Positions 13,414 to 35,629 of a stretch of 43,807 nt of DNA are shown here, piece by piece (the stretch's first letter is position 1; every line of letters begins with the position of its first letter). Under the pieces are notes generated by a model. That model did not search any database and was not told where the DNA came from. It saw only the letters and a list, made by a program, of their open reading frames with translations. The translations under genes and the position numbers were made by a program. Source of the stretch: Eggerthellaceae bacterium (GTDB lineage: Bacteria; Actinomycetota; Coriobacteriia; Coriobacteriales; Eggerthellaceae); NCBI GenBank assembly GCA_017440565.1, contig JAFSHA010000011.1, forward strand, positions 1 through 43,807. The letters are read 5' to 3'.

Positions 13414-14001
13414 GTGCGAGAGGCCGTTGTTAAGCGCACGACGAAAGAGACTGATATTTCGGTTGAGATTTGCCTTGATGGAACAGGGAAGGTCGAGGCC
13501 GAGACGGGTGTGCCGTTCTTTGATCACATGCTGAATGCTTTCGGGCGCCATGGTTTGTTCGACCTGAAGGTGAAGGCGGTTGGTGACATCGACATCGACG
13601 CGCACCATACCGTGGAGGATACGGGTATCGTACTGGGGCAGGCCATCGCGCGCGCCTTGGGCGATAAGCTCGGCATCAGGCGCTTCGGTTCGGCGTTCGT
13701 CCCCATGGACGAGGCGCTGCTGCATGCGGCGCTTGACATTTCGGGTCGCGGGCAGCTGCACTGGAGCGTCGACCTGCCGTTTGGCATGGTGGGCGCTTTC
13801 GATACCCAGCTTGCCAAGGAGTTCTTTATCGCGCTTGCCACGAATGCGGGAATCACGCTGCACGTGCGTGAGATTTCGGGGGAGAACGCCCATCACGTCA
13901 TCGAGGCGTCTTTCAAGGCGGTGGGGCGCGCTTTGCGCGAGGCCTGCGAGATCGACCCGCGCATGGAAGGCGAACTCCCCTCGACCAAGGGCATGCTGTA
14001 G
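13414..14001 (+). CDS. hisB: Imidazoleglycerol-phosphate dehydratase
   Basis: 195 residues, the monofunctional dehydratase length, with no histidinol-phosphatase domain. Contains the two metal-binding signatures FFDHMLNAFGRHG and DAHHTVEDTGIVLG plus the C-terminal ENAHHVIEASFKA histidine motif. Converts imidazoleglycerol phosphate to imidazole-acetol phosphate. GTG start at 13414, six nt after hisC. A histidinol-phosphate phosphatase gene is not found in the operon, so this step must be encoded elsewhere. A 119-nt structured element separates its stop from hisH. Confidence 0.95.
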   Translation: MREAVVKRTTKETDISVEICLDGTGKVEAETGVPFFDHMLNAFGRHGLFDLKVKAVGDIDIDAHHTVEDTGIVLGQAIARALGDKLGIRRFGSAFVPMDEALLHAALDISGRGQLHWSVDLPFGMVGAFDTQLAKEFFIALATNAGITLHVREISGENAHHVIEASFKAVGRALREACEIDPRMEGELPSTKGML

Positions 14002-14026
14002 GCTTGGGCTCTTGCGGGTCCGCACC

Positions 14027-14145
14027 GCGGGGCTGGGAGGCGGGATGCCCCGTGCTCAGACAGTCCTGAGCTCGAGCGAACAGCCCACGGGGGCTGTTCG
14101 GTTCGTGCGGAACTGCGCGCGGGACACCCCGCCTCCCAGCCCCGC
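14027..14145 (+). repeat. Multi-stem inverted-repeat element between hisB and hisH
   Basis: An 18-bp perfect inverted repeat (GCGGGGCTGGGAGGCGGG at 14027-14044; its exact reverse complement at 14128-14145) encloses three further hairpins. P2 is GCTCAG/CTGAGC (14054-14059 with 14066-14071). P3 is CGAACAGCCC/GGGCTGTTCG (14077-14086 with 14091-14100). P4 is GTTC/GAAC (14101-14104 with 14110-14113). The predicted fold is a cloverleaf-like multi-branch junction. TACGTTTT follows the right arm, so the outer stem could also act as an attenuator or terminator within the operon. It is not a tRNA. It could be a mobile palindromic element (REP/MITE-like), a processing site or a cis-regulatory RNA; the sequence alone does not decide. 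Confidence 0.75.
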
Positions 14146-14175
14146 TACGTTTTCCGAACAAGAAGAGGTTTGGCT

Positions 14176-14826
14176 TTGATTGCTGTAGTTGACTACCATA
14201 AGGGGAATTTGAAGAGCGTCGAGCGCGGGCTTGTCGGCGTAGGCGGCAATGCCCTCATCACCGACGACCCCGCGGTGATCGCGCGCGCCGATGGCGTCGT
14301 CCTGCCCGGCGTAGGCGCCTTTGCCGATGCGGCAGCCACCATGCGCGAGCTCGGCCAAGACGTCGTGGTGCGCGATGCCATTGCGCGCGGCGTCCCTTTC
14401 TTGGGCATTTGCCTTGGCATGCATCTCATGTTCGAAGAGGGCGAAGAGGGCGAGGTTGTAACCGGGGAAGACGAGGATCCGCTGCGTCCACAGGGCCTGG
14501 CCGTCCTTCCTGGCGTGGTGGCGCGCCTTCCGCGTCTGGACGTTGCGGGAAACGCGTACAAGATTCCGCATGTGGGATGGAATTCCATCGAGTTTTCCGA
14601 AGGACCGCTGTTCGACGGCATTTCGCAGGGCGAGTTCTTCTACTTCACCCATAGCTTCGCGGCACCTGATACGCCGGCAACCATTGCCACCACCACCCAT
14701 TCCGTCACGTTCCCGAGCGCGGTTTGCTACGGAGAACGCGCGTTTGGCGTGCAGTTCCATCCCGAGAAAAGCTCTGATGCCGGCGCGCGCATGTTGCGTA
14801 ACTTCGTGCGCATCGTCGGCGCGTAA
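14176..14826 (+). CDS. hisH: Imidazole glycerol phosphate synthase, glutaminase subunit
   Basis: 216-residue class I glutamine amidotransferase that supplies ammonia to HisF. It starts MIAVVDYHKGNLKSVERGL, close to the usual HisH N-terminus. The nucleophile is C79 in FLGICLGMHLMFE and the His/Glu of the triad are in VQFHPEKS. TTG 14176 is preferred over TTG 14170 because AAGAGG ends 7 nt upstream of the former and it gives the family N-terminus. It lies 174 nt after hisB because of the inverted-repeat element, in contrast to the tight spacing of the other his genes. Confidence 0.94.
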   Translation: MIAVVDYHKGNLKSVERGLVGVGGNALITDDPAVIARADGVVLPGVGAFADAAATMRELGQDVVVRDAIARGVPFLGICLGMHLMFEEGEEGEVVTGEDEDPLRPQGLAVLPGVVARLPRLDVAGNAYKIPHVGWNSIEFSEGPLFDGISQGEFFYFTHSFAAPDTPATIATTTHSVTFPSAVCYGERAFGVQFHPEKSSDAGARMLRNFVRIVGA

Positions 14827-35520: not shown

Positions 35521-35561
35521 TTGCGGACAGCCTGTCGATGATGTATCATTGACAGGCTGTC
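35521..35561 (+). promoter_or_regulatory. rpmE promoter embedded between two copies of a GACAG-N-CTGTC palindrome
   Basis: TTGCGG (35521-35526), 17-bp spacer, TATCAT (35544-35549) form a good promoter. GACAGCCTGTC (35526-35536) abuts the -35 and GACAGGCTGTC (35551-35561) follows the -10 and covers the likely start site. Each copy is itself a palindrome and the two are 25 bp apart. The whole block is also one long inverted repeat, so as RNA it could instead terminate dfx transcription (weak TTGTCT tail). Confidence 0.6.
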
Positions 35562-35563
35562 TT

Positions 35564-35611
35564 GTCTCGGGTGTCCGAGACACATGATCCGCCTTGGTCG
35601 GAAACCAAGGC
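35564..35611 (+). promoter_or_regulatory. Two-hairpin leader of rpmE (candidate L31 autoregulatory RNA)
   Basis: Hairpin A: GTCTCGG-GTGT-CCGAGAC (35564-35581). Hairpin B: GCCTTGGT-CGGAA-ACCAAGGC (35591-35611). They lie between the predicted transcription start and the ribosome binding site GAAAGGA. Ribosomal-protein L31 leaders have been described in several bacterial groups, and I recall one from Coriobacteria; an exact match could not be tested. Confidence 0.55.
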
Positions 35612-35629
35612 ATGAAAGGAAAACCAACC

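Follow-up and report, generated by a model that had tools for sequence, protein, structure and literature searches.

A dispersed palindromic element of Coriobacteriia with a conserved core and copy-specific stems, represented between hisB and hisH of an Eggerthellaceae bacterium

The window, a 43,807-nt stretch of DNA from an Eggerthellaceae bacterium, contains a run of his genes that are closely packed except at one point. hisD and hisC overlap, hisC and hisB are 6 nt apart, hisH and hisA 11 nt, and hisA and the next his gene 16 nt, while hisB and hisH are separated by 168 nt, with no gap of comparable size elsewhere among these genes, as the original prediction had stated. This gap holds a 119-nt inverted repeat, which was the top-scoring inverted repeat with a span of up to 300 nt in the entire window (33-nt arms, 88% complementary). 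Its outermost arms, GCGGGGCTGGGAGGCGGG and CCCGCCTCCCAGCCCCGC, are complementary over 18 bp without mismatch, confirming the perfect outer stem that had been predicted. The minimum free energy (MFE) of the region 14002-14169 was -108.4 kcal/mol, compared to a mean of -75.0 kcal/mol for shuffled sequences (z = -7.56), and none of 200 shuffles equalled it. The proposed cloverleaf was thus borne out as a strong inverted repeat, but its three separate hairpins appeared only as a sub-optimal alternative, the MFE fold being a single long hairpin interrupted by internal loops. The features of the locus are listed in Table 1.

Table 1. Features of the hisB-hisH element and its flanking genes (positions in the window).
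Feature	Positions	Strand	Basis or remark
Whole element (copy L001): copy-specific stem, conserved core, copy-specific stem	14027..14145	+	
Left copy-specific arm, 18 bp perfect; ~22 bp in total counting interruptions	14027..14044	+	
Conserved core, ~70 nt; outer loop module type A (CCGTGCTCA / ACTGCGCGC), mid module type 1	14050..14120	+	Alignment and covariance model match
AGTCC half of the near-invariant AGTCC/GGAACT pairing	14062..14066	+	Alignment
Inner hairpin CGAACAGCCC-ACGG-GGGCTGTTCG, covarying among copies	14077..14100	+	Alignment
GGAACT half of the near-invariant pairing	14109..14114	+	Alignment
Right copy-specific arm	14128..14145	+	
hisB (PF00475)	13414..14001	+	Stop codon 25 nt ahead of the element, the usual position of intergenic copies
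hisH (PF00117)	14170..14826	+	Gene with in-frame insertions of the family in other genera

Termination had been suggested at the sequence after the right arm (TACGTTTT). However, a terminator scan found no match there or at the right arm, and its sole weak match, at 14154-14173, scored no better than shuffles, so that termination at the right arm was not supported. Elsewhere in the window, Rfam matches were obtained for an L31-Coriobacteria ribosomal protein leader (35591-35621) and for the 3' part of a 5S rRNA (1-86), which placed the host in the Coriobacteriia. A separate 17-bp inverted repeat (35526-35561, 94% complementary, 2-nt loop) lies just upstream of the L31 leader and is possibly a terminator.

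A BLASTN search with 14002-14169 returned 13 other listed places in the source genome, one of them a self-match of the palindrome and two of them contigs that overlap at a single locus, and thus found copies beyond hisB-hisH, as a repeat family predicts. A covariance model built from 43 cores matched 16 sites in the source genome and 30, 31, 18, and 16 sites in four relatives. Of 119 genomes from the family, 64 carried the element, as did 64 of 149 from the order, with at most 33 matches in one genome; the census rests on searches. In genomes representing one per species, the exact core pattern was found in 97 stretches, and the records listed were all from Coriobacteriia, including Slackia exigua, Gordonibacter pamelaeae, Ellagibacter, Parvibacter, Adlercreutzia, Enteroscipio, and Collinsella. 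Rfam searched at permissive thresholds gave only chance miRNA-like and viral matches, phage and plasmid collections searched with the element gave zero matches, and no description of the family was found in the open-access literature searched. The original prediction had left a choice between a mobile palindromic repeat family and a functional RNA, and the copies in many genera support the former. The hisB-hisH feature is best read as a single copy of a previously unlisted palindromic DNA element that is mobile and dispersed in Coriobacteriia.

The copies have a common layout which, from the centre outwards, consists of a covarying inner hairpin, a mid module, the AGTCC/GGAACT pairing, an outer internal-loop module, and the stem. 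The paired internal-loop modules are exchangeable. The mid module has two versions across the family. The outer module is of type A or B, with left and right sides always matching in the alignment, and additional variants of it were seen in Gordonibacter. A longer form with three inner hairpins occupies some sister-species sites (L193, L196, L199, L200, and L202). While the core of ~70 nt is kept across the 128-132 copies compared, the flanking stem (median 21 bp, interquartile range 19-23, 94.5% Watson-Crick pairs) is specific to each copy. A self-pairing stem with a score of at least 10 was present in 124 of 128 copies, against a 95th percentile of 9 for arms paired across copies, and the arms of different copies were unrelated (identity 0.41, with 0.38 expected). 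Taken over all copies and read in the orientation of the core, the left arm was strongly G-rich (54% G, 26% C).

Mismatches far from the core were equally rare in both forms, with 18 G.T and 23 A.C among ~1,700 pairs (p = 0.53). Selection on RNA would tolerate only the G.U of the sense strand, so this symmetry is better explained by matching at the DNA level, and it points to a DNA-level rather than an RNA-level cause of the stem matching. The covariation anticipated for a functional RNA was therefore found, and family-wide, but the symmetry argues against its upkeep by RNA-level selection. The near-absence of G.U in the inner hairpin was also considered as proof of concerted change and was dropped, since orthologues show one-sided changes and G.T intermediates; for this reason we relied on the G.T/A.C symmetry instead. 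Near the core, an A.C mismatch recurs across copies.

The placement of the copies followed the genes. Among copies outside gene-like open reading frames, a stop codon within 60 nt upstream was in the same sense in 60 and in the opposite sense in 8, and after second orthologues were dropped the bias was 50 versus 8 (p = 1.6e-8), with genes called heuristically from GC content by codon position. Intergenic copies lay at a median of ~20 nt after the stop codon. Other copies lie in frame inside HisH (in several genera), TsaB, RNase R (rnr), RecQ, Mfd, HypF, and a DUF512 protein, with Pfam domains detected through or on either side of the insertions. These in-gene copies occur in both orientations and in several frames, and four of the six frames of the core contain no stop. 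In the complete genome G041, core orientation tracked the two GC-skew arcs (replichores) in 21 of 24 copies, a bias inseparable from gene orientation because the genes follow the same arcs. So strong a sense bias with respect to genes is surprising for a palindrome that is purely selfish, and an RNA function at 3' ends is conceivable. Tandem or inverted pairs less than ~250 nt apart, resembling BIMEs or REPINs, were observed at L024, L017, L040, and L043, the L024 pair lying within rnr. At L114/L140 in Gordonibacter, an element is apparently nested in another of module type B.

We compared G041 with Gordonibacter sp. 28C, whose orthologous flanks are mostly ~88-95% identical. Flank matching identified 13 common copies, in addition to sites with an altered element. 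The arms at shared sites were sometimes widely divergent yet still paired: 48 changes were double Watson-Crick ones, 16 led to G.T, and 33 gave other mismatches, with alignment error accounting for some of these. Stepwise compensation contributes to the stem matching, as seen from one-sided changes between orthologues, including changes to G.T. The two species differ in the genes that carry the element. Some unshared sites were clean and others held a half-element (L120/L191, L085/L195), indicating that both gain and decay occur; given these half-elements, element-less sites can also result from deletion. The pair L137/L198 had been considered as proof of a right arm templated on the left one, but is ambiguous in view of the same deletion remnants.

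Several further observations concern individual sites. Where Gordonibacter sp. 28C has L152, G041 carries a long palindrome with a different interior (L205, G041:C1:3834200-3835600), possibly another element family at the same site. L003 (contig C94) and L013 (contig C160) have identical left flanks and different mid modules and right flanks, and look like two strain variants of a single locus downstream of dnaE. A second type of palindrome in Gordonibacter, centred on GGGGAC..GTCCCC with outer arms that seem variable yet complementary, was found near L192, L085, and L138.

Beyond the stem, 15 of 108 copies had a right flank similar to the reverse-complemented left flank, where 1.1 were expected at a threshold set by the 99th percentile of cross-copy controls. 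The inverted stretches extend ~30-160 nt beyond the stem at near-symmetric distances, and usually contain the end of the upstream gene. At L106, an exact inverted copy of the final coding part of the upstream gene (TGCCACGAAGTTGCGCAAGC, 20 nt) lies on the opposite side. Neither exact copy occurs at the element-less sister site, where the gene ends in a diverged version. At L101, the end of the upstream gene reappears in inverted form with 15 of 17 bases matching, and in the element-less sister the gene end is directly followed by the next gene. In RNase R (L150), a conserved stretch of the catalytic domain reappears in inverted form with 15 of 16 bases matching, a case closer to chance level. 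The remaining 93 copies had no inverted extension above the threshold, and the copy in the window was not among the top scorers. Given these inverted flank copies, the right side is most simply a copy of the left. The best explanation, to which we assign a probability of about 0.6, is a mobile palindromic element whose right arm has been copied from the left flank by fold-back.

Under fold-back copying, the core would arrive at a site. A DNA strand already extended across the left flank and the core would fold back on the core hairpin and copy itself before returning to the original template, so that the left arm would serve as template for the right. The inner ~21 bp may afterwards be kept matched by short-range fold-back copying, or by selection for a DNA hairpin, while the outer parts decay. 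Copies inside genes would persist owing to the four stop-free frames of the core, the insertions presumably being at places that the protein tolerates. Transposition was not observed and a mobilising enzyme was not found, and sister-species sites showed no consistent direct repeat that would represent a target-site duplication.

Other explanations were weighed against the same data. That the element is an attenuator or terminator dedicated to the his operon would fit the only large gap of the operon and the very stable hairpin, but it is hardly credible given a family at many unrelated loci, a 97-nt hisB-hisH spacer without the element in a same-genus relative, and an arm without a terminator; the earlier reading of a his-specific cis-acting RNA is not supported in view of the first two of these results. 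An intercistronic or 3'-UTR RNA with a function of its own (an mRNA stabiliser, a processing site, or a ribosome-release element), acquired repeatedly and with its stems under RNA-level selection, would account for the sense orientation and the median of ~20 nt after stops, for the internal-loop modules whose left and right sides always match, and for the compensated changes in orthologous stems. We nevertheless consider it improbable, because the stems show no excess of G.U over A.C, in-gene copies lie in both orientations, carrier genes differ between sister species, and Rfam gave no match.

Another candidate is an element of the REP or MITE type, in which a transposase would bind the folded single-stranded core and the arms would stem from insertion into a hairpin, or from selection for one, rather than from fold-back copying. 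The small dispersed palindromes enriched between genes, the tandem and inverted pairs (L024, L043, L017), the orientation along GC-skew arcs in G041 (21/24), and the small hairpins at some element-less sites are all in line with it. However, Y1_Tnp is absent from G041, G005, and G218, which carry 22-33 copies, and present in the element-free genomes G013, G001, and G040; as gene presence does not track copy number, RAYT (the Y1 transposase) was rejected as the mobiliser. No conserved terminal repeat or foot tetranucleotide was found, the inverted gene-end copies are left unexplained, and 20-bp perfect hairpins are unlikely to have existed beforehand inside rnr or tsaB. We therefore regard this type of element as rather unlikely. 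Insertion into the loop of a pre-existing hairpin was considered because of the small hairpins at some element-less sites; it is disfavoured for in-gene copies and by the inverted gene-end copies, but may hold at some loci.

The element was also compared with known systems. The attC sites of integrons are recombination sites recognised as a folded strand, with conserved loops, free stem sequence, and a position after stop codons. As a comparison of how the two may work, the Coriobacteriia element may share recognition as a folded strand and has conserved loops, a free stem, and post-stop placement, but unlike attC it has a long conserved core. Rickettsia palindromic elements (RPEs) are palindromes of ~100-150 nt that occur in many copies, in frame within unrelated conserved genes (PMC10969869). 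Similar in-frame insertions were found here in the seven proteins named above. However, RPEs encode a conserved peptide, whereas the stems here are copy-specific, several frames and both orientations of the element are used, intergenic copies follow stops, and the flanks hold inverted host sequence. Homology to RPEs was not seen, the exact-pattern search having listed the core only from Coriobacteriia. REPs are defined as palindromes of 20-40 bp with a GTAG/CGTC-type tetranucleotide at the foot (PMC3733652). Like REPs, BIMEs, and REPINs, the copies are dispersed palindromes just downstream of genes, single or paired, but they are larger (119 nt) and their stem sequence is not conserved. No foot of the GTAG/CGTC type was found, positional composition outside the arms reaching at most 0.54 bits, and no strong element match lay beside the RAYT genes examined, although a cognate Y1 transposase would be expected to accompany its repeats. 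The copies also resemble MITEs of insertion sequences in being short, non-coding, dispersed, and presumably moved in trans; unlike in MITEs, the terminal inverted repeats differ between copies (see the arm identities above), and no parent element was found, nor was a target-site duplication recognised. Fold-back (template-switch) inverted duplications are known, for example at yeast breaks, where short inverted insertions are templated (PMC11724301). They likewise copy adjacent DNA in inverted form, but here the copying is centred on a conserved sequence reused at many sites. The element thus resembles RPEs in its coding insertions and REPs in its placement, and it fails the defining sequence tests of both on account of its copy-specific stems and inverted host sequence.

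For the copy between hisB and hisH, an insertion of this type is the most likely reading, as opposed to a dedicated attenuator, and any effect of it on the mRNA would be secondary at most, comparable to that of REPs. Most known bacterial palindromic repeats are recognised through conserved ends. The Coriobacteriia element, by comparison, conserves its centre and the property of being a hairpin, and not the sequence of that hairpin. More tentatively, and with some doubt, we propose that the element is mobile throughout the class, travels as the core alone, and makes its own palindrome wherever it lands, using fold-back copying of the adjacent host sequence. Host genomes would thereby acquire gene ends in inverted copy as well as new peptide segments in frame. 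The element sits in frame in conserved genes of common gut bacteria, and the family is present in Slackia, Gordonibacter, Collinsella, and Adlercreutzia. If fold-back copying is true, the family would represent a mechanism of spread that remodels the target DNA, and would offer a natural system in which to study the formation and upkeep of long palindromes in bacteria.
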